DNA of 51,968 nucleotides from Gracilibacillus oryzae (GTDB taxonomy: Bacteria > Bacillota > Bacilli > Bacillales > Amphibacillaceae), in NCBI RefSeq assembly GCF_009498735.1, contig NZ_ML762424.1:458383-510350 (forward strand), read 5' to 3'. This document shows, one piece after another, positions 5,268 through 47,972 of the stretch. The translations under genes were made by a program, and so were the position numbers. How positions within the stretch are numbered: the stretch's first letter is position 1; the number at the start of each line of letters is the position of its first letter. Under the pieces are notes generated by a model. It was not told where the DNA came from and searched no databases. It worked only from the letters and a program-made list of their open reading frames with translations.

Positions 5268-5273
5268 TCTCCG

Positions 5274-6038: not shown

Positions 6039-6155
6039 TCATAACTTCCTTTCTTACCACTTCTTTTCACACTTCTAACAAGTTTATCATATTTCCTTTA
6101 GATGGAGAAGCAAGACTAACTTGTATTCCTGCAAACTTTATGAACCGATTGAATG

Positions 6156-6190: not shown

Positions 6191-6216
6191 TCTGAATCGC
6201 TCTTATGTTGAATTGC

Positions 6217-6327: not shown

Positions 6328-6411
6328 TTATCCCTCCTTTATTTCGTACACTTATAACGTATGTAGGATGAGGATAAATGGTCCATTAATTTCATGAAAA
6401 TGGGTACTTAC

Positions 6412-7170: not shown

Positions 7171-7182
7171 TCCTTTTCACCT

Positions 7183-30424: not shown

Positions 30425-31555
30425 TTACTTCTTTTCTTTTCCATTCGGATGATTATTTGATGGATGATTCGGGGATTTTTCCGGCCCATGTCCTTTATCT
30501 TTATTCCTTTTGTTCTTGTCATTCTTCTTATCAGATTTATTTGGATGTTTTTTATCAGCTTTATCCTTTTTTTCAGCATGCTTGTCGACTACATGTTCGT
30601 TCTTGGATTGTACAGAATGCTTCCTTCTGTTTTCTTTGGCAACATCACTGGCCTGTTCGGGTAAAGCTGGCTTTGTTTTAATTACTGGCTCATTTTGAAC
30701 ACTTTGTTTTACTTCCGTCTTTATACTGCTCGGAGCTGTTGGATTTTTTGTTGATGATTCCTCTGTTTCAGAAGCTTCTTCCTGTTCAGGTTGAGATGGA
30801 TAATAAAAATTATAAATTAGTTCTCTTTCCTTTTCATTTAATTCCGGAAGCTCTTCTCTGGATTCATCTGCTTTATTTGAACTATTATCTGCTGAGATCA
30901 CGACAGTTCTCTCATCCTCTATCTCTTTTGCCATCATTTTATTTAAGGATATATTTTCTTTTTCAGCCTTTGTTCTTAATGATCTGGATACCTCATATAT
31001 GGCTACAGGATATTGTTTTTCCATATAGTACTCTTCCAGATTTTGAACGACCTGTTTTTGATTATTTGTATCATTATAATAACTTACGGCCATTAAAATA
31101 GGGGAATTATTCTTTAATTCTAATTGCTCATGAGAATATTGAATAATTTCTTCTGATACCTCAGTTAATGTCTTATTTTCTACCTTTATGCTTTTTAATA
31201 ATGTTTTAGCATCCTCATTCATTGGCTGAATATCGATAATACGATAATTTTCATCAATCTCAATATTTACGCTCGGATTGATATCAAGACTTACAATGGC
31301 ATATGCCTCATTCGTATTTGACCATAAAAAAAAAGGTGTGACCAGAGATAGACAGAGTATCACCATTGCTGTAAGTCTAAAGTTCCTTTTGTGACTCCAC
31401 AATAAAAAAGACGACCACTTACCTTCCTTTTCTTCGAATATTACTTCCGCACCAATTTCACTTTCTTTCACTGTTTTTGCTTTATGGAATATCCCTTGAC
31501 GATCAACAACAATCATATAGCCGCGTTTACGTTCAACAACTATTCCTTTTTTCAC
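30425..31555 (-). CDS. rsgI: Anti-sigma-I factor RsgI
   Basis: RsgI is a single-pass membrane anti-sigma factor that holds SigI. The N-terminal RsgI domain (1-50: MKKGIVVERKRGYMIVVD) is cytoplasmic. One transmembrane helix spans about 61-79. The conserved extracellular start AYAIVSLDINPSVNIEID follows at 85-102, with a juxtamembrane domain to about 230. The rest is a Glu/Ser/Pro-rich and then very Lys/His/Asp/Asn-rich low-complexity tail (KADKKHPNKSDKKNDKNK) with no carbohydrate-binding module. The total of 376 residues is close to B. subtilis RsgI. The ATG overlaps the sigI stop (31552-31555), so translation is coupled. The tail probably reaches into the wall. Confidence 0.93.
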   Translation of the reverse strand: MKKGIVVERKRGYMIVVDRQGIFHKAKTVKESEIGAEVIFEEKEGKWSSFLLWSHKRNFRLTAMVILCLSLVTPFFLWSNTNEAYAIVSLDINPSVNIEIDENYRIIDIQPMNEDAKTLLKSIKVENKTLTEVSEEIIQYSHEQLELKNNSPILMAVSYYNDTNNQKQVVQNLEEYYMEKQYPVAIYEVSRSLRTKAEKENISLNKMMAKEIEDERTVVISADNSSNKADESREELPELNEKERELIYNFYYPSQPEQEEASETEESSTKNPTAPSSIKTEVKQSVQNEPVIKTKPALPEQASDVAKENRRKHSVQSKNEHVVDKHAEKKDKADKKHPNKSDKKNDKNKRNKDKGHGPEKSPNHPSNNHPNGKEKK

Positions 31556-32283
31556 AAGTCTACCCCCTCGAGGTATTCTCTTAAATACATATAATCACCT
31601 GTTAGGATAATGAAAATCGTTAAGATATATTTACGATTTCGTTCAAGTGTTTTCTTACTAACTGAAACCAGCTTCAGTAATTTCTTAATCGGGACTCTTT
31701 TCTTTTCCATTACGTATTCTCTTAATTCTGTGTCTTCCACTAATTGTTTCGCCGCAAACACCGCTGATTCTCTCGCATCACGATGCTTAGGTGAGATCTC
31801 GGTTAATTCCTGAAAAGTAATTTTATACTCTGCCAGCTTTTGGGAAAGATCGATAATTTCTTGTTTCCGATGCCATGTATCTTCCTCCAATTGGAAAACT
31901 TTTTTTGCCTCAGAAGCTTCCAGCGGATTTTCTCCAATTTCATCACTATCATGGGAATCCAATGATTGATAGACATTTTGACGTTGTTCTTTTCGAATAT
32001 AGTCAATGACTCTTCTCTTAATAATAACCTGAGCAAACGATAAGAAAGACGATCCTTTCTCTCTTGAGAATCCTTGGATTGCTTCATGAAATGCTATGAG
32101 CCCGACACTGAATTCATCATTCTCTTTCTCTATGTACCTCTTGCAAACTTCTGATACACATTTGGCGATGAATGGCTGGTATGCTTTAATTATTTCATCT
32201 TGTAATTGCTCATCACCTCGCTGAATAATTTCAATTTGCTCTTCTAATGTATATTTTCTATCCATTAACTTGCTTTCCATCAT
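31552..32283 (-). CDS. sigI: RNA polymerase sigma factor SigI
   Basis: SigI is a sigma-70-family factor that in B. subtilis responds to heat and cell-wall stress and controls wall genes. From ATG 32283 it has 243 residues. Region 2 is recognisable: LQDEIIKAYQPFIAKCVSEV, CKRYIEKENDEFSVGLIAFH, FSREKGSSFLSFAQVIIKRR, VIDYIRKEQR. The SigI-specific C-terminal region replaces region 4: ELTEISPKHRDARESAVFAA and VPIKKLLKLVSVSKKTLERN, then RKYILTIFIILTGDYMYLREYL. In-frame GTG codons extend to 32295; the GGTGGTG sequence six bases before ATG 32283 looks more like the ribosome binding site, but the start is uncertain by a few codons. It is cotranscribed with rsgI. Confidence 0.95.
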   Translation of the reverse strand: MMESKLMDRKYTLEEQIEIIQRGDEQLQDEIIKAYQPFIAKCVSEVCKRYIEKENDEFSVGLIAFHEAIQGFSREKGSSFLSFAQVIIKRRVIDYIRKEQRQNVYQSLDSHDSDEIGENPLEASEAKKVFQLEEDTWHRKQEIIDLSQKLAEYKITFQELTEISPKHRDARESAVFAAKQLVEDTELREYVMEKKRVPIKKLLKLVSVSKKTLERNRKYILTIFIILTGDYMYLREYLEGVDL

Positions 32284-32295
32284 TTTCTGCACCAC

Positions 32296-34411: not shown

Positions 34412-35869
34412 CTAATTAACTACATTATCATTGTATTGTTCATAAATTTCATCAATTGCTTCTTCATAATTATTTTCGAGTTTTTCTTCCAAATAACGTT
34501 GCGCCTCATCACCATAATCCCCTATCACAGACGATAATGCGTTTATATTACCAAACAAGTAGGAATAATTCCCGCCAAGGTAATCATCCTCAAGTTGCAT
34601 TAACACTCTCTCCATTATATTTTTTTCATCAGATGCCAGGTAACGCCATTCGCTTCGCAATTCGAGAACTTTGCCCCTTACATCTCCTCTATCCTGATAT
34701 GCTCCTACTTCTGCAGAGCTTTTCCACTTCTTCCATTGCAGTAATAGTTCCTTCGCTTCTTCAAACACACGCTTGAGCTCATCTTCATTACCAACTGCCG
34801 TATAACTTCCTTCTCCTGCTTCTGCTAATGTCTGTAGTTCTTGCTCACCTTCCGCATCTACATTAAGACCAATTACATTAATAATCGGTTCAATATTCGA
34901 ATCTACTAATTCCTTCGCTACTTGTACTGGATCTCCATCACATGTTTCCACACCATCACTTACCACATAAACCAAATTGTTGTTCGTCTCACTTGAAAAG
35001 CCCTTAAAATCTTGTTTTGCCTGTTCGAGACTTAAGGCTATCGGTGTCCAGCCAGCTGGTTGAAAACTGTCCAGTACATTTCCAAAAGCACTCTGATCCA
35101 GCGGCTGAAGCGAGTATACCAGTTCGGACGCCTGACAAGATTGTGCCTTCATTTCCGCTGTATTTTCTCCTTCATGTCCATATACTCTTAACCCTACATT
35201 TGCTTCTTCCGGCAATTGAGTAACAAAATCGTGAATCGAGCTTTTAGCAATATCTATCATTGGTTCTCCATCTATCTCATTGATCATACTTTTGCTTACA
35301 TCTAATATTACTAATACATTGAATTGGTCCTTAAATGATATTGATTGATCACCTATTTGAGGTAAATCGGATTGGTCCACTTGGATCTCCGTTAGTATTT
35401 GATTAGGATCGGGATAGTCTTCAGCAAATAATGAACGATAAGCCTTGAACCATTGATCCAATTCCTCTTCACTTGCTTCTTCTGATAGAGCTGGTAATTG
35501 TTCCATCACATAGTCTGCCATCTCATGAACAGGCATTAATGGAGCCTCCCCTGTAATTCTTCCATTCCCAGCTAATGGACCAACAGGATATGCGATGATT
35601 TCATCTAAAGTTGCAGGCTCTTCCGGTGCACGTTTTATCAGGTTCTTTAATGGGTCACTATCTTCTTCACTAAAATTCTCCATCTCTTCTTCATCAGCTA
35701 TGTTGCTATCATCTTTTTCACTGCTTGTATCGGTTGGACTTACCTTTTCTTCCTCACTATTATGATCTGTGTTTTCTTCTATCGATTTATCAGAAAGTTC
35801 CTCTGCTTGGCATGCAACTAAGAGTAATAGAATGATAAGGACAGATACGAGATTCTTTTTCAATAACAT
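34412..35869 (-). CDS. VWA-domain lipoprotein, paralogue 1 of the Tad locus
   Basis: This 485-residue protein has a lipoprotein signal (LLLLVAC, Cys20) and an acidic Ser/Glu/Asp linker (about 21-72). The shared family block DPLKNLIKRAPEEPATLDEI and IAYPVGPLAGNG follows. A helical segment (about 110-165) ends FAEDYPDPNQIL. The VWA domain covers about 190-370. Its metal-ion-dependent adhesion site is intact: DVSKSM, then Thr in AGWTPIA and Asp in VVSDGVETCDGDP. Two Cys (QSCQAS and ETCDG) are conserved in all four paralogues and may form a disulfide. A helical C-terminal region follows (about 375-485). A GAAGGAG ribosome binding site precedes ATG 35869. Such proteins probably bind protein ligands outside the membrane; the role in the pilus is inferred from location. 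Confidence 0.85.
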   Translation of the reverse strand: MLLKKNLVSVLIILLLLVACQAEELSDKSIEENTDHNSEEEKVSPTDTSSEKDDSNIADEEEMENFSEEDSDPLKNLIKRAPEEPATLDEIIAYPVGPLAGNGRITGEAPLMPVHEMADYVMEQLPALSEEASEEELDQWFKAYRSLFAEDYPDPNQILTEIQVDQSDLPQIGDQSISFKDQFNVLVILDVSKSMINEIDGEPMIDIAKSSIHDFVTQLPEEANVGLRVYGHEGENTAEMKAQSCQASELVYSLQPLDQSAFGNVLDSFQPAGWTPIALSLEQAKQDFKGFSSETNNNLVYVVSDGVETCDGDPVQVAKELVDSNIEPIINVIGLNVDAEGEQELQTLAEAGEGSYTAVGNEDELKRVFEEAKELLLQWKKWKSSAEVGAYQDRGDVRGKVLELRSEWRYLASDEKNIMERVLMQLEDDYLGGNYSYLFGNINALSSVIGDYGDEAQRYLEEKLENNYEEAIDEIYEQYNDNVVN

Positions 35870-35992
35870 ATAATGAACTCCTTCGTTTAAAATGAGATAC
35901 CAGGTAAATTGAAATTATTATAATAAGGGTACTGAATTAATTCTACAAGCTTTGGAAAAACCCTTATTGATATAATGAAGAGAATCTGCTGA

Positions 35993-37459
35993 CTACAACT
36001 CTTCATCATATAATTGTTCGTATTCTTTGTTTATTTCCTCAAGATGCGATTCATAGTTTTTCTCAATATCATTCTTTAGTTGCTCAAATGCTGTCTTTCT
36101 AACTTCATCATAGAAATCTTTTTTTTCATTCATTTTTGTCCACATATAATCATAGGCATCCCTATTTATATAATCTTCGTCATAATGGAGTTTCCTCAAA
36201 ACCGCTAGATGATTAGAGAACTCATCTCGCAATATGTAACTCCATTCATTTCTATCTTCTGTAGCTTGTAAACGCTGATCACTCATTTGTTCATAGGCAC
36301 TCGATCGCTCTCCCTCTTTCCATTCCTTCCACTGTTGAATTAATGCTTCACCTCTTCCCAGTGCTTCTTTTAATTCTTCTTCATTCCCTGCATTTGTATA
36401 AATCCCACCTCCCGCTTCGGCAATTTCCCGTAAGTGGGCTTGGCCTTCGATTCCTACATTAAATCCAATCACATTGACAATTGATTGGATATTCGAATCC
36501 GCTAACTCCTTGGCAGCAGTTACAGGGTCTCCATCACACGTCTCTGCTCCATCACTGACTACATAGACTAAATTCGTATTATTCTCTCCAGGAAATGCAG
36601 TGAAATCCTCCTTCGCTTGTTCTAGACTTTGTCCAATCGGTGTCCATCCTGTTGGTGACAATGGATCAATCAGATCTTGAATATCACTTGTATTGGCTGA
36701 TTGAAAGTCATAGATTAAATCAGTAGCTCGGCATGACTCTTCTTTTGTATGTCCCGTACTTTTTCCTTCATGGCCGTATACCCGGACACCGATATTTGCC
36801 TCATCCGGAAGGTCGGACGTAAAATTGTAAATTGAATCTTTAGCCATTTGGAGCATCGTTTTACCATCGACCTCATTCGCCATACTTCCACTAACATCAA
36901 GGACAAGCAATACATTGATCTGGTCTTTAAAGCGAAATCGCTCATCTTCCAACACAGCATTACCAAAATGGGTATAATTTAATTCCTAAATGATCTGTCT
37001 AGGATCAGGATATTCTTCTGCAAATAAATAACGAAAAGCACGCCACCATTGATCGAAATAGGCTTCATCTTGTTGTTCTTCCTTAATTAGCGGTAACACT
37101 TCCATGACATATTCTGCCATTTCCTCTTCTCTCATTACCGGTTCAATGCCAGTTCTCGCTCCATTCCCAGCTAGTGGACCAACAGGATAGGCGATGATTT
37201 CTTCTAGATTAGCGGGCTCTTCTGGTGCTCGCTCTAAAAGGTCAGCTAGCGGATCAATGTCTTCTTCTTCTAGGTCATTATCTTCTTCATCAACTAAATT
37301 AGCATTCTCTGAATCACTAATGGTACTAACCGTTTTTTCATTCACACTATTCTGGTTTGTGCTTTCTTCTATTGATTCATCGGAAGGTTCCTCTTCCTGG
37401 CACGCCGCTAAAAGGAAGAAGATTAGGAGGATATATAAGAGATTTTTTCTATGTAACAT
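35993..37459 (-). pseudogene. VWA-domain lipoprotein, paralogue 2, interrupted by an in-frame amber codon
   Basis: The reading frame from ATG 37459 (GAAGGAG ribosome binding site; signal peptide ending FLLAAC) continues with no frameshift to a stop at 35993 and would encode 488 residues. The only interruption is TAG at 36986-36988, codon 158. The frame reads PDPRQII, stop, then ELNYTHFGN. In paralogue 4 the same place reads PDPRQVIKELNYTHFGN, so a Lys codon (AAG to TAG) has changed. The VWA domain after the stop is intact: LDVSGSM, SPTGWTPIG, VVSDGAETCDGDP. As written, only the signal peptide, linker and first helical block are made. Recent inactivation, read-through or a sequencing error are all possible. 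Its closest relative in the window is paralogue 4. Confidence 0.85.
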
Positions 37460-37510
37460 GGATTTAACTCCTTCCTTTAAAATTTAGTTATAGGAAGTGT
37501 GTTCACAATA

Positions 37511-37519
37511 TGGTATAAT
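37511..37519 (+). promoter_or_regulatory. Extended -10 promoter of the prepilin peptidase gene
   Basis: TGGTATAAT gives a TG-n-TATAAT extended -10 box 38 bases before ATG 37557. No good -35 box lies 17 bases upstream, as is common for extended -10 promoters. It lies in the 97-base gap between divergent tadV and vwa2. Confidence 0.65.
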
Positions 37520-37556
37520 TATGTATATGTTTTCATAAAATGGGAGGTATTTACAC

Positions 37557-37994
37557 ATGGAAGTTACTCTATTTATTGTTCCAATCGCTATTATTCTGGT
37601 AATCTCTATTTATACAGATTTAAAAAGCAAAAAAATATACAACTGGATAACATTCCCAAGCATGCTCTATTTTAGCCTTTTCCATCTTGTGTTCAATCTT
37701 GAAGAAATTCTTGCTTACATACTAGGATTTTTACTTGTTGGAGGTATTTGTTTCCTTATTGCTATGTTCACGAATTCATTAGGTGGGGGAGATATAAAAT
37801 TATTGGCACTGCTTGGTTTAGCCTTTGGAATTGATCCTGGCTTTCACATTTTATTATATAGTTATTTATTAACCGCATTTATTGCTGTTCCTATTCTTAT
37901 ATTGAAGAAAATAAATCCTGATAAAATGTACATAAAAGAAATCCCTATGGCACCGTTTATCGCGCTAGGGACCTTCATTGTTTATATAGCGTAG
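37557..37994 (+). CDS. tadV: TadV/CpaA-type prepilin peptidase (A24 family)
   Basis: This membrane aspartic peptidase cleaves the leader of Flp-type prepilins. It has 145 residues and about five transmembrane helices, the short form without the N-methylation domain. Both catalytic aspartates are visible: SIYTDLKSKKI (Asp22) and LGGGDIKLLALLG (the GxGD-type motif with Asp near residue 79). Its substrate is presumably the Flp pilin at 42389-42619, and perhaps the TadE-like proteins. It is the only gene of the Tad locus on the + strand and has its own promoter and a GGGAGG ribosome binding site. Its stop lies one base from the stop of the convergent gene at 37996. Confidence 0.93.
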   Translation: MEVTLFIVPIAIILVISIYTDLKSKKIYNWITFPSMLYFSLFHLVFNLEEILAYILGFLLVGGICFLIAMFTNSLGGGDIKLLALLGLAFGIDPGFHILLYSYLLTAFIAVPILILKKINPDKMYIKEIPMAPFIALGTFIVYIA

Positions 37995-37995
37995 A

Positions 37996-38319
37996 CTAGA
38001 TTTCTGTTACAACCTCTTTTTGTTCTTTCTGATTCTTGTAAGCATCCATTAGAAGCAAAATTGCGCTAATAATATGCATAATCATACCTAAGAAAATTAT
38101 CCAGCCTAAACAGGAGGTAACAATTCCAATAATACTACCGTGAAAACTCTTCTTTTCTTGAATAGAAAAAATTAATGTAACAATATGCAATATTAGCATG
38201 ACCAGTAAGGGGAGCCAGGCAAATCCTAAAATAATCGTACCACCAATAATGGGAATGCCCCAGAACGCTTCCAAGCCTCCAGTGATCCATTTAAAAAGGG
38301 TTGACACACTTGTTTTCAA
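37996..38319 (-). CDS. Small multi-pass membrane protein of the Tad locus, unrecognised family
   Basis: This 107-residue protein has about three to four hydrophobic segments (FWGIPIIGGTIILGFAWLPL, LVMLILHIVTLIFS, IIGIVTSCLGWIIFLGMIM, IISAILLLMDAY) and a charged C-terminus (KNQKEQKEVVTEI). I start it at TTG 38319, which has GGAGGG nine bases upstream and follows the vwa3 stop. The longer open frame to 38355 starts inside vwa3 without a ribosome binding site. No family is recognised. Position at the end of the tadE-tadG-vwa3 run suggests cotranscription and perhaps an accessory role in the pilus system, which is only inference. Confidence 0.65.
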   Translation of the reverse strand: MKTSVSTLFKWITGGLEAFWGIPIIGGTIILGFAWLPLLVMLILHIVTLIFSIQEKKSFHGSIIGIVTSCLGWIIFLGMIMHIISAILLLMDAYKNQKEQKEVVTEI

Positions 38320-38341
38320 AGATAATCCCTCCAATATATGG

Positions 38342-39655
38342 TTAATTATTCTCAATATCTTTGTTGATTAAATCGAATTGGGCTTTGAAATTTCCATTAA
38401 TTGCTTCTTTTAATTCAATGTATGAATTTTCACCAATTTCATTAAATAAATGGGATCTTTCCGTTCGTTTAATAGCGAAATACCTATGGGCAGCGTCTGT
38501 AATATAGCCAGAGCTTCTTAAATCATTAATAATCGAAAAAACACTGCTTCCTTCACGCTGATTCACTTCTTTCCACTTTTCTAAAAATGCATCTGCTTCC
38601 TCTAACTGTTCAATTTTATGTTCGGCAGCCCTATTCCCTGCAAGCTGTTGCCAATCCCTCCACTCGCTAATCATTTGTTCTGCCCGTTTAAATGCTCTCT
38701 GTAGTTCTTCTTCATTTCCGGCTGCAGTATATTCTCCTCGTCCTGCCTTTGCAATTTTTTGCAGTTCACTTTGTCCAGCCTGATCTACATTGAGACCAAT
38801 TACATTAATAATCGGTTTTATATTGGTGTCCTGGAGGGACTCTGCTACGGCAGCAGGATTACCTCCACATGTATCTAGTCCATCACTGACTACATAAATG
38901 ATGTTAGAGTTATGTTCGGAAGGGAACTCTGCCAGATCTTCTCTAGCTTGCTGAATACTTAAAGCAAGCGGAGTCCATCCTGCCGGCTCATATCGTTCGA
39001 TCTCATCATAAAATTCCTCTTCATCTAAAGGTTGCAACTCATAGACTAGCTCAGAGCTCTCACAAGATTTCTTCTCTTTATCTTTACTGCTATCTCCTTC
39101 ATGACCATATACCCTTAGTCCTACATAAGCGTCATCTTGTAATTCTTCTGTAAACTGTATAATAGAGTCTCTAGCTATATCTATCAATCTCTTACCATTA
39201 ATTTTCTTCTTCATACTTCCACTTACATCCATAACGATAAGTACATTCACTTGTTCTTTAAGTGGAATCGTCTCTTTCTCTTGTAATAATGGATGGGTAA
39301 ATGGTTCTAGTTGTTGTTCAACATATATATTCCGAGGATCTGGATAGTTTTCCTTGACTAAGGAATAATAAACATTCCACCAATCTTCTAAATACGCTTT
39401 CTCTTTCTCTTCATCAATTGGCGGTAAGATGGATTTAACCGTTTCTAACATTGATTCTTTATTTTCATCATACGAAAGCTCGGCTAAGGAACCCTTTGGG
39501 TATTCTAATATTCCCACCAAATCTTTAGGCATTTCTTCCACCAATTCCTTTTCTTTCGCAAATACTTCATGAACATCATTAGAGGAGCATGCAGTAGATA
39601 ATATCAAGAAAGTTATTGATGTTAATAGCAGGATGATTTTATGATTTAGCTTCAA
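38342..39655 (-). CDS. VWA-domain lipoprotein, paralogue 3 of the Tad locus
   Basis: This 437-residue protein is the most divergent of the four. The lipoprotein signal is MKLNHKIILLLTSITFLILS followed by TAC (Cys23). The acidic linker is nearly absent, and the shared block is reduced to VGILEYPKGSLAEL. The helical segment ends WWNVYYSLVKENYPDPRNI. The VWA domain starts near residue 137, with VMDVSGSM, PAGWTPLA and YVVSDGLDTCGGNP. The MIDAS residues and both family cysteines (KSCESS, DTCGG) are conserved. A helical C-terminal tail of about 110 residues follows. It lies 37 bases after the TadG-like gene and is probably in the tadE operon. A GAGGAGG-type ribosome binding site precedes the ATG. 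Confidence 0.85.
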   Translation of the reverse strand: MKLNHKIILLLTSITFLILSTACSSNDVHEVFAKEKELVEEMPKDLVGILEYPKGSLAELSYDENKESMLETVKSILPPIDEEKEKAYLEDWWNVYYSLVKENYPDPRNIYVEQQLEPFTHPLLQEKETIPLKEQVNVLIVMDVSGSMKKKINGKRLIDIARDSIIQFTEELQDDAYVGLRVYGHEGDSSKDKEKKSCESSELVYELQPLDEEEFYDEIERYEPAGWTPLALSIQQAREDLAEFPSEHNSNIIYVVSDGLDTCGGNPAAVAESLQDTNIKPIINVIGLNVDQAGQSELQKIAKAGRGEYTAAGNEEELQRAFKRAEQMISEWRDWQQLAGNRAAEHKIEQLEEADAFLEKWKEVNQREGSSVFSIINDLRSSGYITDAAHRYFAIKRTERSHLFNEIGENSYIELKEAINGNFKAQFDLINKDIENN

Positions 39656-39692
39656 TTAGCGTCCTCCTCTCTGACAATTGTGAAAATGAAAA

Positions 39693-40349
39693 TCAAAAGG
39701 TTTGATTTGGAAAGAAATTTAAACTGTCTAAAAATTTTATTTCGAGACCCATCCCAACGTTTTCGATATCTTCATTAATTTCCCCTAAGAAACTTGCTTC
39801 CATACTCTCATACTCGGCAGATGTCTCTACTTCTATACGATTGTTGCTATTAAAGTAAGTAATTATCGTGTCATTTTCATTACCTTTATTTTTTTCTACA
39901 ACTTCTTGTACGGCATTTTCCACTGCTGGTCTAGCAGAAAGTAAACTGCGCTGGACTTCAAATTCCAATAAGTAAACACTGTATGCTTTTCTTAATGACA
40001 GAATTGCTGAGTTTGAAAGAAATTTATCAATTGCCTCATGTTCAGATAAAGATGGATTGGACGCTTTCATTAATTCATACTTTTCTTTCAAAGGGCAGGG
40101 CACATCTACCCCTGCGATATTTCCACAGGCGTATTGAAATGTATTGATTAAATCCAACATTTCGTCATATACAACTGATGTTGCAGCTAAGCTCGCCTGT
40201 TCTGCTGATGTGTTCGACCGTTCCGCCACGATAAAGATCTTGGCATAATTAAAGAACAGGAAAATTAATATAATTCCAAAACATACAATTCCTAAAGTAA
40301 TAATTGAAGCATTGCCTTTTTCATCTTTTAATATATTTATTGCTCTCAT
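39693..40349 (-). CDS. TadG/TadF-like minor pseudopilin without a VWA domain
   Basis: This 218-residue protein has a class III prepilin-like N-terminus: KDEKGNASIITLGIVCFGII, with Gly followed by a polar stretch and then a hydrophobic helix. An extracytoplasmic, mainly helical domain follows (TSAEQASLAATSVVYDEM and so on), with a Cys pair in YACGNIAGVDVPCP. TadG proteins of many Gram-negative loci fuse such an N-terminus to a VWA domain. Here the chain stops at 218 residues with no MIDAS motif, so it resembles TadF or a truncated TadG. Its ATG overlaps the tadE stop (40346-40349), so the two are translationally coupled. The role in pilus assembly is inferred. Confidence 0.75.
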   Translation of the reverse strand: MRAINILKDEKGNASIITLGIVCFGIILIFLFFNYAKIFIVAERSNTSAEQASLAATSVVYDEMLDLINTFQYACGNIAGVDVPCPLKEKYELMKASNPSLSEHEAIDKFLSNSAILSLRKAYSVYLLEFEVQRSLLSARPAVENAVQEVVEKNKGNENDTIITYFNSNNRIEVETSAEYESMEASFLGEINEDIENVGMGLEIKFLDSLNFFPNQTF

Positions 40350-40726
40350 TCTATCATCCTGCTATATGTATAATGTGGTAACTCAAATAGGTCACGCCAT
40401 GAACTTGGTCCAATAAATATGCCGTGTTTCCCTGTGAAATTAACAGTGAAATAATTATCTCCTTCATTTTTTACATCAAAATCGGAATAACCTAAAAGAC
40501 TTGTAGAAGTAAATTCATCCAACACATCCCTTGCCTCTGATTCATTACCAGTGATTGAATAAACTTTAGCTGATTCATGGACTGCTTTTTGGGCAAGCAG
40601 AATGGAATACCCTGAAATGAGTACTTGAACAAATACGACAAATATAATAATGATAAACGGCAGCAGACCCATAAACTCAATATTTATGGAGCCTTTGTCA
40701 TCTTTCAGGTATTGTTTTGCTTTCAA
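40346..40726 (-). CDS. tadE: TadE-like minor pseudopilin
   Basis: This 126-residue protein carries the TadE signature: DDKGSINIEFMGLLPFIIII, with Glu at position +5 after the predicted cleavage site following Gly, then a long hydrophobic helix. The extracytoplasmic part is about 85 residues. A prepilin peptidase (tadV) in the same locus is the likely processing enzyme. The gene opens the tadE, tadG-like, vwa3 group and lies 87 bases after vwa4. A GGAGGAATCC ribosome binding site precedes ATG 40726. Confidence 0.87.
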   Translation of the reverse strand: MKAKQYLKDDKGSINIEFMGLLPFIIIIFVVFVQVLISGYSILLAQKAVHESAKVYSITGNESEARDVLDEFTSTSLLGYSDFDVKNEGDNYFTVNFTGKHGIFIGPSSWRDLFELPHYTYSRMIE

Positions 40727-40813
40727 CGGGATTCCTCCTTTGTTTATATTTTTAGGTTCTCACAACTAAGAGAAAAGTTCCTAAGGTAACCGTAAAAGTT
40801 AACATTCAGCGTT

Positions 40814-42277
40814 TCAACTTTCAATATTTTTATTATATTCCTTATTTATTCTTTCCAATGTTTCCTCATATTTCTTTTCTATTTCATCTAATAATTCTTT
40901 ATACTTTGTATCTCTAATTTCAATATACAGATCTCTTTTTTCCATCATCCTATCATATAAATAATCATATGCCTCTTGACTAATGTAACCTTCTTCAGCT
41001 AATGCATGAAGTACAGACCGATGATTTTCAAATTCATCAGAAATTGTATAGCGCCACTCATTCTCTTCAGATATAGCTTTTACCTCTTGTTCTCTTCTCT
41101 GCTCATAAATATCAGCTTTTTCCCCTTGTTTCCATTCATTCCATTTTTTAATTAATGCTTCTCCTTGCCCTAACGCTTCTTTTAATTCTTCTTCATCACC
41201 TGAATTGGTGTAAATTCCTCCACCAGCTTCGGCTATTTCACGTAAGTTATTCTGACCTTCAATACCTACATTGAAGCCAATCACATTTACTATTGATTGA
41301 ATATCGGACTCTGCTAACTCCTTTGCTACCATTGCAGGGTTTCCTTCACATGTCTCCGCTCCATCACTGACAATATAAATTAAATTTGTGTTACTCTCTC
41401 CAGGAAACCTGGAAAAGTCCTCCCTCGCCTTTTCTAAACTTAGGCCAATCGGTGTCCATCCTGTTGGTGACAATGGATCAATTACCTCTTGGATATCACT
41501 AGTATTTGCTGATTGAAAGTCATAAATTAAATCAGTAGCTTGGCATGATTCTTCTTTTGTAAGTCCCGTACTTGCTCCTTCATGACCATAAATACGAACA
41601 CCAACATTGGCATCCTCAGGTATATCAGAAGCAAAATTCAAGATAGAGTCTTTTGCTATTTGAAGCATCGATTTACCGTCCACTTCATTCGCCATACTTC
41701 CACTGACATCAAGAACAAGCAAAACGTTGATCTGATCTTTAAAGCGAAAACGTTCATCTTCTAATGCATCATTCCCAAAGTGGGTATAATTCAATTCTTT
41801 GATAACTTGTCTTGGATCAGGATAGTCCTCTGCAAATAAATAACGCAACGCACGCCACCATTGATCATAATACGTTTCATCCTGTTGTTCCTCAATTGGT
41901 GGTAATACCTCCATTACACGATTCACGAGTTCTTCTGTTTCCATGACAGGTTCTTTTCCAGTGATGCTTCCGTTACCCGCTAGCGGTCCAACTGGATAAG
42001 CTATAATTTCCTCTAAATTGCTTGGTTCTTCAGGTACTCGTTCTAGTAAGTTTGCAAGAGGATCACTTGTTTCTTCATTCGCTTCTTGCTCTTGTTCCGA
42101 ATTCTCCTCATTATTCTGGCTCTCAGAATCTTCAGTTGTGATTCCTTGGGATTTCTGATCATCCCTCTGTTCATCCTGCTCCACTTCTTTCTCTCCACTT
42201 AGACAACCTGAAAGTATGAGAAAACAAAAAAAAGTGAAAAAGACTACTATGAAGTTATTCATATTCCTAAGATTCAT
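40814..42277 (-). CDS. VWA-domain lipoprotein, paralogue 4 of the Tad locus
   Basis: This 487-residue protein has a lipoprotein signal ending FLILSGC (Cys25) and a Glu/Gln/Asn-rich linker (about 30-75). The shared block DPLANLLERVPEEPSNLEEI and IAYPVGPLAGNG follows. A Trp-rich helical segment (YYDQWWRALRYLFAEDYPDP) precedes the VWA domain (about 178-360). The adhesion site is complete: LDVSGSM, SPTGWTPIG, IVSDGAETCEGNP. The helical C-terminal tail is about 120 residues and highly charged. It lies directly after flp, so major pilin and VWA lipoprotein are probably coexpressed. It is the closest relative of the interrupted paralogue 2, nearly identical through the VWA core. A weak AGGAAAGTGGG sequence may act as ribosome binding site. 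Confidence 0.87.
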   Translation of the reverse strand: MNLRNMNNFIVVFFTFFCFLILSGCLSGEKEVEQDEQRDDQKSQGITTEDSESQNNEENSEQEQEANEETSDPLANLLERVPEEPSNLEEIIAYPVGPLAGNGSITGKEPVMETEELVNRVMEVLPPIEEQQDETYYDQWWRALRYLFAEDYPDPRQVIKELNYTHFGNDALEDERFRFKDQINVLLVLDVSGSMANEVDGKSMLQIAKDSILNFASDIPEDANVGVRIYGHEGASTGLTKEESCQATDLIYDFQSANTSDIQEVIDPLSPTGWTPIGLSLEKAREDFSRFPGESNTNLIYIVSDGAETCEGNPAMVAKELAESDIQSIVNVIGFNVGIEGQNNLREIAEAGGGIYTNSGDEEELKEALGQGEALIKKWNEWKQGEKADIYEQRREQEVKAISEENEWRYTISDEFENHRSVLHALAEEGYISQEAYDYLYDRMMEKRDLYIEIRDTKYKELLDEIEKKYEETLERINKEYNKNIES

Positions 42278-42388
42278 AAGAACTACCCACTTTCCTCAGC
42301 ATAATTTAAAGTAATATAGAATAATGTAGAATAACAATGAGGAAAATAATTTCCTCATTTGTTATTCTGTATTAATAATTATATATAA

Positions 42389-42619
42389 TTATCTAAAAGA
42401 AAATAATCCCGTTACGCCTTCTATAATACTTCCAAGTAAACCATCAATTAAACCTTCTCCTTGTCCACCATCAAAGAAATTCATAGCAATCATTATAATT
42501 ACTACTGCTACTGCTGCGATGCCCATAAATTCGACAGCTGTTGAACCTTCTTCATCTTTTCTTAAACGATTTACTGCAGTTTGACCTTTCACATACAATT
42601 GCTGACCTATTTTTGTCAT
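42389..42619 (-). CDS. flp: Flp-type major pilin
   Basis: This 76-residue Flp prepilin has a basic leader of about 25 residues (MTKIGQQLYVKGQTAVNRLR). The class III cleavage region KDEEG then STAVEFMGIAAVAVVIIMIA follows: cut after Gly, with the conserved Glu-Phe at +5 and +6 of the mature chain. A hydrophobic helix leads to a short Gly-rich C-terminus (FDGGQGEGLIDGLLGSI). Mature length would be about 51 residues, typical for Flp. An AGGAGGAATTTT ribosome binding site supports strong translation. It is followed by vwa4 and preceded, after 220 noncoding bases, by tadC. Confidence 0.92.
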   Translation of the reverse strand: MTKIGQQLYVKGQTAVNRLRKDEEGSTAVEFMGIAAVAVVIIMIAMNFFDGGQGEGLIDGLLGSIIEGVTGLFSFR

Positions 42620-42786
42620 AATAAAATTCCTCCTAAATAATAGATAAATTTTTAGTTCTAACTATTCCCTAAAACTATAAACATGTAGAGACAACAACTT
42701 AAAACCAGACAAACAATTTACTTGAATCTAACCACCTCCTTAAATTATAATTAAAAAAGATAAATCTATTCCCTAAAATAGTTTTT

Positions 42787-42842
42787 ATCTAAAGACCTGT
42801 GCTGCGATGCCCATACATTTGACAGCTCAAGGTCTTTTTTTA
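42787..42842 (-). repeat. Hairpin after tadC containing a 27-base echo of flp
   Basis: Bases 42801-42827 match 42513-42539 inside flp (codons of TAVEFMGIA) at 25 of 27 positions, on the same strand. The echo sits in a hairpin whose outer arms are AAAGACCT and AGGTCTTT on the + strand, directly after the tadC stop. The hairpin may terminate or attenuate between tadC and flp; the minus-strand T tract after it is weak. No start codon or open frame accompanies the echo, so it is not a second pilin gene as it stands. Confidence 0.75.
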
Positions 42843-43784
42843 TTAGTTGAATGACCCGAGTATACCGCTATCTAAAATATCATAAACGATGTTCAATAAT
42901 AATAATCCACCTATCAGAATAAAAGCAGTTGGCATAACAACAAACGTTGTTACCATCGTAACTTTTGGTGAAGCTTTAGCAGCAAGTTCCTTTGCTTTTT
43001 CTTTCCTAAGTTTTCTAATCTCTGCTGACTGAATCTCAAAGGTTGTTGCAACAGGTACTCCTAACTCAGCTCCCCGAATCAATGATTTAATTACTGTTTG
43101 AAACTCTGGTACATCGGTTCTATTAATCAGTTCCAAATACAATTCTTCCCTTGGTATTCCTAAATTAGCGCGGTGATTAAATCGGGAAAACTCCTCCTGA
43201 ATCGGTCCCTCAAAATAACGCGATATTTCCCTAAATGCTTGATCCAAGCTTGCACCAGCTTTTAATGTCACACTGACCATGTCTAAAAAATCCGGTAAGG
43301 CATAACTTAGCTCATCCTGACGTTTCTTCGCTTTATTTTTAATCCAAATGATCGGACCAAAGAAACCGACAAAAGGTAAAAGTACAATTAAAAATTGCCG
43401 AAATGGAAATCCAATTAAAAATGCAATAATCCCTGAAAAGAAACCAATTAATGTTAAAACTATTTTTAGACCATGAAATCTCTTTACTGTTAAACCAAAT
43501 GGATGATTGGCTTGTATTAACCATTTTGCTACATCATCTGTTTCACTGAAAAAATTAAATCGCTCTCCAATTTCAGAGAAGTCATCAGCAAATACTAGAA
43601 CTTTGGTGAAGATTTTGTGAAATACCCTCTGTTTCTTTTGTTTTTCTTCTTTACCACCATAATTTGTTTCTTGCAATTTCGCCTTCACTTCATTTTTCTG
43701 GCCAATATAGCGATACCAAGCACTAAGTGAAATCCCTAGTAAAAGAATAGAAAGAATAGCTATTAAAGTTATTAAATCCGTCAT
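42843..43784 (-). CDS. tadC: TadC-like pilus assembly platform protein (GspF domain)
   Basis: This 313-residue inner-membrane platform protein of the Tad machine has an N-terminal helix (DLITLIAILSILLLGISLSA), a soluble stretch and two central helices (LKIVLTLIGFFSGIIAFLIG, FLIVLLPFVGFFGPIIWI). The T2SSF domain follows: LPDFLDMVSVTLKAGASLDQ, then AFREISRYFEGPI, and FQTVIKSLIRGAELGVPVAT. A final helix is ATFVVMPTAFILIGGLLLL. The motifs are those of TadC. It begins four bases after the tadB stop. Together with TadB it transmits the motor force of CpaF to the growing pilus. Confidence 0.93.
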   Translation of the reverse strand: MTDLITLIAILSILLLGISLSAWYRYIGQKNEVKAKLQETNYGGKEEKQKKQRVFHKIFTKVLVFADDFSEIGERFNFFSETDDVAKWLIQANHPFGLTVKRFHGLKIVLTLIGFFSGIIAFLIGFPFRQFLIVLLPFVGFFGPIIWIKNKAKKRQDELSYALPDFLDMVSVTLKAGASLDQAFREISRYFEGPIQEEFSRFNHRANLGIPREELYLELINRTDVPEFQTVIKSLIRGAELGVPVATTFEIQSAEIRKLRKEKAKELAAKASPKVTMVTTFVVMPTAFILIGGLLLLNIVYDILDSGILGSFN

Positions 43785-43788
43785 ATAA

Positions 43789-44715
43789 TTACACCCTTAT
43801 ATTGGTTACTTTTTGAACAAGGATAAATGAAAGTACGGTACCTATTGCAAAGATAATTAATATAATTATCCCTGGTATTGTAAACAACACCTTGGTGAAA
43901 TCTTCCATCATCATATTAATACCTAATATCAAAACAATTGGAATGGATGGAATTACATATGAAATAAACTTCTGCTCTGATGTTAAGGTTTTAATCTCCT
44001 GCTCTAAGAATTTCCGTTCATCAAGCACCTTTGCCATTTCTTCCAGTGTTTCATGAAGATTTCCACCAGCTTTCTTTTGCGTTAGCAATGTAACGATAAA
44101 CAATTTATACTCTCTGCCTTTGATTTTCTTCTGAAATTTAAGTAAAGCATCTTCGAAATCCAATCCCAGACTAAGTTCATTAGATAATTGTTTAAACTCA
44201 CTTCTGGAAGGTTCACTTAATTCCCTGGCAACTAATTGAAATCCCTGAGAAAGTGTCATACCTGATCGTGTGGCATTGGCTAATGTGACACAAACTTCTG
44301 ATAATTGATTGTTTAATTTTTCTTGATATTTATTTTTCCGGATAAGGAAGATTAATTGAATAATGGCAGCAATAGCAATAACCGCAAATATAAAACTCAT
44401 AGCCAGGTTAAACTTTAACAGCATATTGAAAACTAAGGTCAAACCTAACCCTCCAACGAATAACATACTGCAAAATTCTGATGGAGTCAGAATAATATTA
44501 ACTCGCCTCAGCCTTAATTCGAGTTTTTTTCCATAATCTGTTCGGTCAAAGCGCTCTCCCCAAATTACAATAAAACTCTTTCTGTTTTGTGTATGTTCAA
44601 AATCTGTTCTCGTCTTCCCTTTCCATTTTTGCTTGTTAAGCCTGTAATCCAAATAACTGAATACTCCCCAAATCCCGAACATTGCCGATATACTAAATAA
44701 GACTGATGCTGTCAT
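43789..44715 (-). CDS. tadB: TadB-like pilus assembly platform protein (GspF domain)
   Basis: This 308-residue partner of TadC starts with a membrane helix ([20 protein letters not shown]). A basic stretch and two helices follow (MLFVGGLGLTLVFNMLL, LAMSFIFAVIAIAAIIQLIF). The T2SSF domain has LSEVCVTLANATRSGMTLSQ, GFQLVARELSEPSRSEF and KKAGGNLHETLEEMAKVLDE. Two C-terminal helices close the chain. ATG 44715 lies inside the end of cpaF (23-base overlap) and has GGAG ten bases upstream, indicating coupled translation. Confidence 0.93.
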   Translation of the reverse strand: MTASVLFSISAMFGIWGVFSYLDYRLNKQKWKGKTRTDFEHTQNRKSFIVIWGERFDRTDYGKKLELRLRRVNIILTPSEFCSMLFVGGLGLTLVFNMLLKFNLAMSFIFAVIAIAAIIQLIFLIRKNKYQEKLNNQLSEVCVTLANATRSGMTLSQGFQLVARELSEPSRSEFKQLSNELSLGLDFEDALLKFQKKIKGREYKLFIVTLLTQKKAGGNLHETLEEMAKVLDERKFLEQEIKTLTSEQKFISYVIPSIPIVLILGINMMMEDFTKVLFTIPGIIILIIFAIGTVLSFILVQKVTNIRV

Positions 44716-46063
44716 CTGTATTCACTCCTTCACCTGCCTCAAATAATGAATCTGGAACATCTTGACCAAACACTTGTAAACGATATTGATTTTTTGGAAT
44801 AATTCCTGTCGGAGTGAAGAACCCTTGTACTTTGCCATCCTTGCCCAGGCCTGTCCGTTGATATTTAAATATTTCCTGCAGCTTTACACCTTTTGTCTTT
44901 GTATCAACAACCACTTCAGATATTGACATTGTCTTTCGCTGACCATCTTGCAAACGTTCTATTTGGACAATGTAATCTAATGCACCAACAATATATTCCC
45001 GGATAATGGAACTTGGCAATTCCATCCCTGCCATCATAATCATCCCTTCCAAACGTCTAACTGCATCTAAAGGTGTGTTGGCGTGAACGGTTGTTAATGA
45101 CCCTTCATGACCTGTATTCATCGCCTGTAACATATCAAATGCTTCTGCCCCACGAACCTCACCGACAACAATCCGGTCAGGTCTCATCCTTAGAGCATTT
45201 CGAACAAGGTCGCGAATGGTGATGGCACCTTTTCCTTCCGTGTTTGGTGGACGTGCTTCTAACCCAACCACATTCGGTCTATCTAGCTTTAACTCGGCTG
45301 AATCCTCGATTGTTATTACCCGTTCACCTGGTGGAATGGACCGTGAAAGTGCGTTTAACAAAGTGGTCTTTCCACTACCAGTACCACCTGAAATGAGCAC
45401 ATTCATCTTTGCTGCAACAATCGATTGTAAGTAAGACGACATTGCTTCATCCATCGAGTTGAATTCGATGAGATTGTTCATTGTAAAAGGGTCTTTGGAG
45501 AATTTACGAATCGATACTAATGTTCCATTTAAACTAATTGGTGGAATTACTGCATTGACACGACTTCCGTCCGGGAGCCTTGCATCAACCATTGGAGAAC
45601 TTTCATCAATTCGACGTCCGATTGGTGCAACGACTCTGTCGATAATATGCCTAACGTGTCGCTCGTCTCTAAATTTTAAATTCGTTTGCGTCAATTGACC
45701 TTTTTTTTCGATATATACTTCCCCATGTCCATTAATAAGAATTTCTGTTATATCCAGATCATTCAGCAGAGGCTCTAATGGACCAAAACCAACCGATTCA
45801 TCTATAATTCGGGTTAACAAATGTTCTTTGTCCCGATGAGAGATTACTACTTTCTCTTCACTCATGAATTGAGTGATGATACGTTCAATTGCTTGTCTCA
45901 TTTCTTCTTGCTTCATACTTGTCAATCGATCAAGGTTTGTCTCATTAAGTAATCTTGCTTTGTAATGGTCACTTAATTCCTCGACATAAGGATTATCATA
46001 AGCGGAAAAAGTTGGTGCTTCTTTAGTTATTGTTTGAAACTGTTTTTTACTAAATAAACCCAT
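44693..46063 (-). CDS. cpaF: Tad pilus motor ATPase CpaF/TadA
   Basis: This 456-residue secretion ATPase of the VirB11/GspE class drives Tad pilus assembly. The N-terminal domain (about 1-185) contains [20 protein letters not shown] and the arginine-rich [20 protein letters not shown] followed by [10 protein letters not shown]. The ATPase core has Walker [18 protein letters not shown] (about residue 220), ITIEDSAEL with the Asp box, Walker [21 protein letters not shown] and the His box [12 protein letters not shown]. All catalytic elements are intact. It lies 13 bases after tadZ. The C-terminus has a Pro/Gly-rich segment, [11 protein letters not shown]. Confidence 0.96.
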
Positions 46064-46076
46064 TTCACTTCTCCCC

Positions 46077-47249
46077 TTACTTTAACTGTGTCAGCACATA
46101 CTTACGAACTTGCTTAGATAATGTTGGTATTTTCTTTTCTTTTGTTTCTTTTCTTAATGGTTCTCCCTTATTAATCAGCGGTTGTACCCCTTTTCGGTCT
46201 TCCTTAAATTTCGCAACAATAGGATCTACGATAAATTCTTTAACATCCGCTGTTGTCAATTCACTGCTCCGATCCATCCGGTTTACGATTACTTTCATCC
46301 GTCCTTCTGTATCCATTTGCAGGCGTTTAAGCAGGTTAGTAACTTGCTTATAATTGCTTATAGCAGGTGTATCTAAACTTAATACATAATGGATCACTTC
46401 AGATTCTTCTAATGCACTGAAGGTGATCGGATCCATATTTATAGGTAAATCGATTACCACCATATCGTAAGCTCTTCTGCACGTCCGAAGCAGGCGAACA
46501 ATATGCTCTTCGGTTATTGTCTCAGCAATTTCTGCATCCCGTGGGCTTAATAATAAATCCATTTTAGAATAGGTTTCTTTCATTACAACATTGTGGACAT
46601 GGTTTTCATTTAATTCATCAATAACCGGCAGTAAATCCGCAATTGAGCGTGCACTTTCTACCCCCAGATACTTCTCTGCCCCACCATATTGTAAATTCAA
46701 ATCAATAAATAAGACTGAAGCAGTTGATTCTAGTTTAATTGTTTGCGCAAAAAGTGTGGACAATAACGTTCGTCCAACCCCTCCCTTTCCACTGTAAAAG
46801 GAGATGATTTCACCTTTTCCTTTCTTCATTGCCTGACTTGATGGTAATGGCTGAAGCTCAGAATGCTGCCTTTCCTTAACAGTCAGTATTATTCTTTCTA
46901 ATCTTTCCAGGAAATTTGCCAATTCTTCAGGCAAAACAAAGAAATCATTTACACCTATTCGAATTAAATCACGTAATAACTGAAAATTTGCCTTATGAGA
47001 TAGATAGATAAATACCGGCAATTCAGCATCGCCGATCTCATCTTGGATATACTCTATCAGTTCAATACTTGATTCATCCTTCTCTCCATCTGTCATTATA
47101 ATAATTTGTGGAGATATTCGATCAATCTCTTTACGTACCTCAGAGCTTGTTATGGTCTCCACTTGTCCATACACTGGTAGAAGCTCTTCATGCAATTGAC
47201 TTTTCAGCTGTTTATTATCACAAACCAGCAGCATTTTGACTTGCTCCAT
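46077..47249 (-). CDS. tadZ: TadZ/CpaE-like protein (receiver-like plus ParA/MinD-type ATPase domain)
   Basis: This 390-residue protein is thought to localise the Tad machine. Residues 1-120 form a response-regulator-like fold (MLLVCDNKQLKSQL, IIIMTDGEKDESS, FIYLSHKANF). Asp appears at the phosphorylation region as in many TadZ proteins, but phosphorylation is doubtful. The ATPase domain (about 145-380) starts IISFYSGKGGVGRTLLSTLF. The deviant Walker A has the signature Lys (SGK) but Arg in place of the P-loop Lys of KGGVGKT. Further motifs are VLFIDLNLQYGGAEKYLG and MVVIDLPINMD. It lies between cpaB and cpaF, as in other tad loci, and its gene follows a GAGGAGGATT ribosome binding site. Confidence 0.88.
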   Translation of the reverse strand: MEQVKMLLVCDNKQLKSQLHEELLPVYGQVETITSSEVRKEIDRISPQIIIMTDGEKDESSIELIEYIQDEIGDAELPVFIYLSHKANFQLLRDLIRIGVNDFFVLPEELANFLERLERIILTVKERQHSELQPLPSSQAMKKGKGEIISFYSGKGGVGRTLLSTLFAQTIKLESTASVLFIDLNLQYGGAEKYLGVESARSIADLLPVIDELNENHVHNVVMKETYSKMDLLLSPRDAEIAETITEEHIVRLLRTCRRAYDMVVIDLPINMDPITFSALEESEVIHYVLSLDTPAISNYKQVTNLLKRLQMDTEGRMKVIVNRMDRSSELTTADVKEFIVDPIVAKFKEDRKGVQPLINKGEPLRKETKEKKIPTLSKQVRKYVLTQLK

Positions 47250-47267
47250 TTCTAATCCTCCTCTGTC

Positions 47268-47972
47268 TTAAGCCTCATTGTTTTGATCTGGTTCTTGTTC
47301 TGTTTCCTCAGTCACTGCTTCTTCGGTTACTTCTTCCTTGGTTTCTGATTGTGGCACTTCACTGTTGCCATTCGTTGATTTCAAAATATGTATATTATCC
47401 GCATAATGTTGCATATGAATTAGTTCAGGTGCCTGCTGTTTCGAAACTTCCAAAGCAACTCCCTGCCCAGTATCTGATGAAATAACTTTTTGGACAAGAA
47501 CATCTGACATGAATACTTCCGTAACTGGTTCTTCTTCAAAACTTTGAGAAACGACAATATCCACCCGATCTAAATGCTGCAATTCGTCATCAAAAAAAAC
47601 TTTGCTGTTATCTTCTAATAACTCCACCAACCGGTTCCCTTCATCGGTCAGTTCAGTAAAAGGCCTTAATATATTCTGTGTAACAAAGTCTCCTTCTTGT
47701 AAGGGAATTATGGAAACTTGACCTTCAATTTGCTCCATTGAAAGCACATGAGCATCTGTTACATAGCGATTGGGGATTTCAATTGTGGTTATTTGATCTG
47801 CAGATATCCGTTCCCGCGAGTTAATATTCTGTTCTACTACAAATACTTCTGACATCTCACCCAAATCTGCGTTAAGCTCATTGACATTGTTGTAAAAAAG
47901 TACACCTGCAAGAATTGCTAGAATAAAAGATAATGTAATAAATATGAGTGCTCTTCTTTTTGATTCAAACAT
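47268..47972 (-). CDS. cpaB: CpaB/RcpC-like pilus assembly protein (SAF domain)
   Basis: This 234-residue protein is the first gene of the minus-strand Tad operon. It has one N-terminal membrane helix (ALIFITLSFILAILAGVLFY) and then an extracytoplasmic SAF domain (VFVVEQNINSRERISADQIT, IEGQVSIIPLQEGDFVTQNI). The RcpC/CpaB C-terminal domain follows (HLDRVDIVVSQSFEEEPVTE). The last 30 residues are a Glu/Thr-rich tail (VTEEAVTEETEQEPDQ). In Gram-negative bacteria CpaB/RcpC acts with the outer-membrane secretin; in this monoderm the SAF protein probably binds the wall or guides the pilus. An AGAGGGAT ribosome binding site lies 11 bases before ATG 47972. Confidence 0.85.
   Translation of the reverse strand: MFESKRRALIFITLSFILAILAGVLFYNNVNELNADLGEMSEVFVVEQNINSRERISADQITTIEIPNRYVTDAHVLSMEQIEGQVSIIPLQEGDFVTQNILRPFTELTDEGNRLVELLEDNSKVFFDDELQHLDRVDIVVSQSFEEEPVTEVFMSDVLVQKVISSDTGQGVALEVSKQQAPELIHMQHYADNIHILKSTNGNSEVPQSETKEEVTEEAVTEETEQEPDQNNEA

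Follow-up and report, generated by a model that had tools for sequence, protein, structure and literature searches.

A separate, predicted VWA lipoprotein beside the pilin gene in one group of Tad pilus loci of Gracilibacillus oryzae and its relatives

VWA (von Willebrand factor A) domains of Tad and type IV pili have been described as parts of minor pilins or of PilY1 (consulted portions of PMC6916266, PMC12607857, PMC12075869 and PMC3244431; in the consulted portion of the last, a Gram-positive survey, neither ‘VWA’ nor ‘von Willebrand’ occurs). TadG/CpaL combines an N-terminal pilin-like module with a VWA domain that has a full metal site, and PilY1 is a pilus-associated VWA protein with a disulfide reported to be of functional weight (PMC12607857, consulted portion). 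Both CpaL and PilY1 have been proposed as force-sensing or retention parts. PilB of Streptococcus sanguinis is a minor pilin with a VWA domain from another pilus type, IVa (PMC6916266, consulted portion). Tad pili of monoderm bacteria are poorly known; the loci of Bifidobacterium and Micrococcus resemble the one described here in their reduced Tad gene set, and the consulted portion of PMC6916266 does not mention a separate VWA lipoprotein for them. Here we describe a Tad/Flp locus of Gracilibacillus oryzae (contig NZ_ML762424.1; the window is the whole stretch of 51,968 nucleotides that was analysed) in which VWA domains are carried by separate genes of lipoprotein type, and compare it with loci of other Bacillales. 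An earlier note on this DNA had called the arrangement possibly undescribed, and a search by title and abstract, with subscription journals mostly outside it, found no description of a separate VWA lipoprotein in a tad locus. We think it rather probable that these proteins are a clade-specific, membrane-tethered, ligand-binding module of the monoderm Tad pilus and that the slot they occupy is exchanged in some lineages.

The locus is complete and runs on the − strand from cpaB (47972) to the last VWA gene (34412), with the prepilin peptidase gene inside it on the + strand. VWA1 (40814–42277, VWA 38.8 bits) follows flp, VWA2 (38342–39655, VWA 38.7 bits, with a short linker) follows the TadF/G-like gene, and VWA3 (35993–37459) and VWA4 (34412–35869, VWA_2 28.2 bits) lie beyond the divergent tadV, all four on the − strand. 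They had been taken as four alike and intact genes, each with a lipobox, a YPxGxLA block, a YPDP segment, a DxSxS motif and two Cys; this description fits VWA1, VWA2 and VWA4, which are intact and have every one of these features, whereas the reading frame of VWA3 is stopped by an in-frame TAG (36986–36988) after 157 residues, which splits its lipobox and YPDP segment from the VWA core. A VWA domain within the TadG-like protein itself is ruled out by Pfam and by the structural model. That protein (TadF/G-like minor pilin, 39693–40349, − strand; PF13400 17.4 bits, below the cut-off of 22.3) is modelled as a single long N-terminal helix followed by mixed helices and strands, and its pilin-like look comes from this layout alone, as a fold search with the model against the PDB gave no match at E ≤ 1e-3. 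The locus thus differs from TadG/CpaL systems, in which the minor pilin carries the VWA domain.

For the VWA family we aligned 83 full-length members, picked by length and spread from those collected. All 83 keep the lipobox Cys25, the full metal-ion-dependent adhesion site (MIDAS; D190, S192, S194, T275 and D305) of the kind seen in TadG/CpaL, and the pair Cys245/Cys310, which beyond residue 30 are the sole Cys in the VWA1 columns; DxSxS was found in all 136 collected members. A strict lipobox pattern is matched by 48/52 flp-adjacent copies, 40/49 other copies in tad loci and 31/35 copies elsewhere, and among the misses some have a Cys after the helix when inspected by eye and others have wrong or truncated starts. 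The lipobox, whose Cys ends the signal helix, suggests that the proteins are lipid-anchored in the membrane. Over 1500 sampled pairs the VWA domain is the best conserved part, with a median pairwise identity of 51%, against 25% for the N-terminal part, 22% for the C-terminal hairpin and 14% for the linker; the linker is acidic, with a median of 51 residues between Cys25 and residue 85. The model of VWA1 (predicted local distance difference test, pLDDT, 85.7; predicted template modelling score, pTM, 0.64) predicts a signal helix, a disordered linker (29–67), short helices to about residue 160, a VWA domain (181–361) and a hairpin (362–485) of two long helices (362–428 and 434–485). Minor pilins of the TadG/CpaL type have a prepilin leader and a pilin-like N-terminal helix fused to the VWA domain; here a lipobox and a disordered linker stand in that place, followed by the helical part, and the C-terminal two-helix hairpin is a further difference, as is the predicted lipoprotein nature with respect to PilB. 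All 83 members match a VWA family of Pfam, at most 2/83 match any other family and none matches the PilY1 family. PilY1 has a C-terminal beta-propeller, which is not seen here, the C-terminus being modelled as a helical hairpin. Structural comparison of VWA1 residues 170–384 (VIA-align) gave Mfa5, SpaC and PilB among the neighbours of the VWA domain; since TFIIH and receptor VWA domains reached similar Z, the fold cannot choose between functions. As the comparison was limited to these residues we do not claim a new fold. Mfa5 is the tip protein of a type V pilus, a different system, and aligns in its VWA domain only.

Linkage between the VWA genes and the tad machinery was counted from the CpaF side, to avoid selection on VWA, in 299 genomes of the order, with CpaF matches divided into four similarity bands, the best 5 to 10 candidates scored per genome and a VWA threshold of E ≤ 1e-35. 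In the first band (E < 1e-180), to which the window belongs, a VWA gene lies within 5 kb of 40 of the 41 CpaF genes among the matches listed, and at the lone miss (genome G217) a gene for a VWA-type lipoprotein, seen by eye, starts after flp and is cut by the contig end. Within 15 kb, again among the matches listed, a VWA gene was found for 10/15 CpaF genes of the second band, 0/79 of the third, the control band, in which some of these genomes appear with a second CpaF gene, and 1/15 of the most distant band, which is partial; weak VWA relatives near these far bands could be missed. Among the second-band misses, G203 does carry a VWA gene when its locus is read (L165, 16263), and the CpaF match of G354 is partial, with a VWA gene on another contig. 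In a second sample, of 159 genomes of the family, scored in the same way, 27 CpaF genes reach E ≤ 1e-145; 24 of these have a VWA gene at 5 kb or less and two more at up to 15 kb (26 in all), and the 27th (G043) has after flp a VWA gene with an in-frame stop that is cut by the contig end; CpaF and VWA occurred together in 26 genomes, CpaF alone in 1, VWA alone in 22 and neither in 110. Given these counts in both samples the association is not due to chance, and they support the VWA lipoproteins as a real component of this type of tad locus. On a tree of CpaF (midpoint root, with a long-branch warning) two changes suffice to explain the presence and absence of VWA over 80 labelled rows, a count that omits two contig-end rows and L091 and in which most VWA rows come from loci selected by VWA; with so few changes the linkage looks old and kept and not like a series of repeated gains. 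Tad-linked members occur in Brevibacillus, Paenibacillus, Planococcus, Sporosarcina and many Bacillaceae.

The position of the gene is largely constant. We read 77 named loci, drawn from the 80 of 382 relatives most similar to VWA1 and hence biased towards tad; at least two core tad genes are present in 57 of them and tadC in 52. In 50 of these 52 VWA-selected loci a VWA gene stands directly after tadC/flp; in L092 and L111 it lies at another point of the locus. The spacing of VWA and tadE was measurable in 47 loci. Only 7 of them (L088, L093, L094, L113, L144, L159 and L161) share the compact form of the window, with tadE directly after the VWA gene; the other 40 have extra genes between the two that are absent from the window, coding for a secreted repeat protein, a membrane protein distantly like UPF0259 and, in many cases, one to three proteins of about 275 amino acids.

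The occupant of the slot, by contrast with the genes around it, can differ between near relatives. The nearest named relative of the window is Gracilibacillus ureilyticus (L087; L169), and its DNA in L169 is collinear with the window over two stretches, cpaB into flp (87%) and tadE into VWA3 (82%), whereas the slot between them holds distant paralogs: VWA1 of the window best matches a distal copy of L169 (74%) and the slot copy of L169 best matches VWA4 of the window (84%). At the protein level the two loci have identities of about 100% for CpaF, 93% for TadZ, 85% for TadC, 77% for TadE and 85% for TadF but 42% for the slot VWA. Similar differences are seen in Rossellomorea (L120 vs L125/L141: CpaF 96%, TadF 89–90%, slot VWA 51%) and Lentibacillus (L136 vs L148: 89%, 78% and 48%; L099 vs L136: 88%, 74% and 47%). 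Among pairs with a CpaF identity of at least 85%, slot VWA and TadF values are both known for 33; in 5 of these the slot VWA is at least 20 points below TadF, the five coming from three groups and not being independent. An AU (approximately unbiased) test, run on quick trees and with 2000 resamplings where the program recommends more, rejects the machinery tree for the slot VWA by 225 log units (467 alignment columns). When copies on the VWA tree are labelled by place (slot, other place in a tad locus, or none), 40 changes of label are needed against 63 in shuffles, so that place is clustered but changeable, and tandem copies cluster (L108, L113, L139 and L146). A mosaic test on eleven triplets gave p 0.0005 for seven, about 0.02 for two and no significance for two. 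Judged by these sequence comparisons the flp-adjacent slot seems to be exchangeable, a feature that is new in this analysis.

These properties can be combined as follows. The VWA lipoproteins would be a dedicated accessory part of one Tad (type IVc) group in monoderm Bacillales and relatives. After export each would receive a lipid at Cys25 and be held on the outer side of the membrane by the acidic flexible linker, displaying a small helical part, the VWA domain with its intact metal site and Cys pair, and the long hairpin of two helices. Ligand binding through the metal site is the most likely task of the VWA domain, the ligand being perhaps a surface, the pilus itself or a partner cell, and the lipoprotein may thereby supply in trans the job of the TadG/CpaL VWA domain, which is absent from the minor pilins of this locus. 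In some lineages the slot VWA would be replaced by, or recombined with, paralogs kept elsewhere while the machine stays alike. A stronger version of this proposal, which we regard as tentative and somewhat doubtful, is a diversity system in which the slot holds the working copy and new VWA genes are recombined from paralogs, fragments and broken copies, so that a conserved pilus shifts its recognition.

Several of our results weigh against the reading of the VWA lipoproteins as a ligand-binding pilus module. The VWA fold is a generic one, and a lipid anchor is no obvious fit for a pilus-tip protein. No VWA gene was seen in the stretch read for G334, G273 and G163, whose CpaF genes are of the second band. 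Conversely, a CpaF of this kind is missing from 22 of the 48 family genomes that have a VWA match, and only 78 of 150 listed VWA matches in the order sample, about half being unlinked, and 42 of 98 listed in the family sample lie within 15 kb of one (first or second band in the order sample). The family is therefore not exclusive to tad loci (7 of the 11 copies in the genome of the window are on other contigs or far away), and the expectation in the earlier note that it is tied to them stood from the CpaF side but failed for a large part of the VWA matches; homologues mostly away from tad, named there as grounds for giving up the idea, are what was seen for the remaining, distant members of the family sample (6/43 linked) but not for the best, close ones (36/55). 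As for exchange, 28 of the 33 pairs do not show a drop of 20 points from TadF to the slot VWA, in many close pairs the slot VWA is kept (L125/L141 96%, L116/L119 98%, L101/L147 95%), and in distant Brevibacillus pairs TadE/TadF (46–55%) have diverged as much as the slot VWA (46–53%). TadE/TadF also reject the machinery tree (deltaL 91, 346 columns), which together with the Brevibacillus pairs means that part of the discordance is general. The mosaic evidence is weakened by the two triplets without significance and the two at only about 0.02, and uneven rates along a gene can feign mosaics. Finally, a terminator-like repeat (42359–42336) lies between flp and VWA1 and makes their co-transcription uncertain, although terminator-like sites were not commoner in the scan than in shuffles (10 vs a mean of 7.3, standard deviation 3.0).

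Other explanations account for parts of the same evidence. PilY1 primes or stabilizes pilus assembly, and a VWA lipoprotein at the pilus base could likewise prime or stabilize assembly with TadE and TadF and have no extracellular ligand. The constant position between flp and tadE in 50/52 loci, the near-total linkage to one CpaF band and the membrane tether suggested by Cys25 in 83/83 members would all fit such a factor. It should, however, co-evolve with the machine, and in some pairs the slot VWA has been replaced while CpaF, TadE and TadF stayed alike; minimal monoderm Tad machines are moreover described without a VWA lipoprotein (PMC6916266, consulted portion). Because a single part is exchanged on an otherwise unchanged machine we favour recognition over an assembly or structural role, and consider the latter unlikely. 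We give still less credit to a tethered force sensor or retention hook, in which the VWA domain and Cys pair would respond to pilus tension or surface contact and either signal or hold the pilus: the invariance of the Cys pair and metal site, the long hairpin of the model and the precedents of CpaL and of a PilY1 disulfide (PMC12607857, consulted portion) are in its favour, but there is no obvious signalling partner among the locus genes scanned for families and the bonding of the Cys pair is itself presumed.

That the VWA genes are bystanders, an expanding Bacillales lipoprotein family whose members come to lie next to tad genes by chance and duplicate there, would agree with the 7/11 unlinked copies of the window's genome, with the 72 of 150 listed order-sample matches that are not near such a CpaF, and with the tandem and broken copies observed. 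It is hard to reconcile with linkage of 40/41 in one CpaF band against 0/79 in the third (matches listed), or with the use of one usual slot across Bacillaceae, Brevibacillus, Planococcus and others, and we hold it to be very improbable overall: it is largely refuted for the flp-adjacent copy and possible for VWA2 to VWA4 of the window. If the preferred reading, a ligand-binding module exchanged on a conserved pilus, is right, a separate VWA lipoprotein in a constant and exchangeable slot would offer a tractable system for target recognition by Tad pili and for its evolution, in largely environmental species, and a gene so far generic could be annotated as part of a pilus system in dozens of loci.

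The remaining genes of the window's locus form the full Tad set that the earlier note had recognized, a claim borne out by families and prepilin motifs, with several matches below cut-off. They are, all on the − strand unless stated, a CpaB/RcpC-like gene (47268–47972; TIGR03177 40.8 bits, below the cut-off of 71; SAF domain 28.4 bits), a TadZ/CpaE-like ATPase gene (46077–47249; AAA_31 55.9 bits; CpaE_hom_Actino 49.1 bits, below cut-off), the gene for the CpaF/TadA ATPase (44693–46063; T2SSE 217.5 bits; TIGR03819 350.9 bits, below the cut-off of 373.15), which falls in the VWA-associated CpaF group on the tree and is the one CpaF match at E ≤ 1e-30 in the whole genome, and genes for the platform proteins TadB (43789–44715; T2SSF 66.2 bits) and TadC (42843–43784; T2SSF 63.7 bits). 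They are followed by flp (42389–42619; PF04964, Flp_Fap, 20 bits, below the cut-off of 32.2), whose product aligns with Flp of relatives, and by the gene for a TadE-like minor pilin (40346–40726), which aligns with relatives and has no Pfam match at cut-off; alignment with relatives places the prepilin motif G-S-x(3)-E in both. The TadV prepilin peptidase gene (37557–37994, + strand; Peptidase_A24 62.2 bits) is divergent to VWA3. CpaF with TadB/TadC, Flp and a prepilin motif with TadV, and TadZ with CpaB/RcpC thus make up a Tad/Flp (type IVc) system. An open reading frame (ORF) of 119 amino acids (37996–38355) overlaps VWA2, has no Pfam match at cut-off and is kept beside VWA2-type genes in relatives, with homologs of 56–85% identity in L067, L087, L088, L089, L090 and L123. 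A promoter scan gave 66 sites against 57.1 in shuffles. The locus is flanked by aldo/keto reductase and glycosyltransferase-28 genes on one side and by genes for carbonic anhydrase, a trypsin-like protease and a sigma factor/RsgI pair on the other, the sigma factor and RsgI-like anti-sigma genes lying at 30425–32295.

Among the distal copies, VWA2 has a counterpart of 81% identity at the same place in L169, and VWA4 matches the flp-adjacent VWA of L169 in its core (83% DNA identity) and C-terminus (86%). VWA3 is probably a chimera of two copies, with a VWA4-like 5′ part and a VWA1-like 3′ part, judging from its DNA: its first five 150-base windows are 57–71% identical to VWA4 vs 35–66% to VWA1, the next eleven 72–85% identical to VWA1 vs 53–69% to VWA4, and of the sites that distinguish VWA1 from VWA4 it agrees with VWA1 at 30% ahead of alignment column 452 but at 75% beyond it (permutation p 0.0005). 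In four windows the 5′ part has 92–95% identity with a truncated copy that stands beside tadV, at the corresponding place, in L169. Readthrough or recoding of the TAG found no support, the counterparts at the like place in L169 and L067 being also decayed, and a sequencing error is possible. With regard to phase variation by stop codons, by-eye counts over the matches listed showed an inner stop in 8/98 and 5/150 VWA matches and in 0/27 and 5/150 CpaF matches.

VWA genes and the accessory genes of the slot were also seen in other settings. The protein of about 275 amino acids, which has no family match, occurs beside the secreted repeat protein in two or three copies in L128, L140, L147, L099, L146, L143 and L124, a pattern like that of immunity genes. 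In L114, L122, L127, L138, L151, L155 and L160 the position of the Trp-rich repeat protein is taken by a secreted Pro-Gly repeat protein, which has other partners and the same adjoining membrane protein. VWA genes distant from a tad core of this type have members of such accessory families (secreted repeat, about 275 amino acids) alongside in L117 (1216–8426), L137 (9962–11454), L132 (9980–11712), L091 (9989–11495) and L070 (10288–18642); it is as if VWA and accessory genes moved as a cassette, most of the 20 tad-less loci being without accessory families. In L067 (Oceanobacillus limi, 1392–7898) tadV, the 119-amino-acid ORF, a VWA2-type gene and two more VWA copies stand about 17 kb from the tad core, unlike in the window, where this group adjoins it, and L090 has VWA copies and the 119-amino-acid ORF with no tad core genes in the 16 kb examined. 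Close to a contig end in L171 (4579–15600) six VWA genes form an array, and the CpaF listed for that genome, G194, belongs to the most distant band. The tad locus of L077 (7255–11931, G072) may be decaying: its flp-adjacent VWA gene is divided between two reading frames, and cpaF is split as well. Bacillus subtilis YwmC and YwmD are presumably related short VWA lipoproteins. A sequence search of solved structures matched one weak chain, PHROGs gave no match, and a search of a plasmid set with VWA1 returned 142 records, none reaching 80% query coverage. The best of the listed plasmid matches comes from an unexpected host, a VWA protein on a plasmid record named Klebsiella grimontii (CP079755.1, 211571–212689) with 31% identity over 76% of VWA1.

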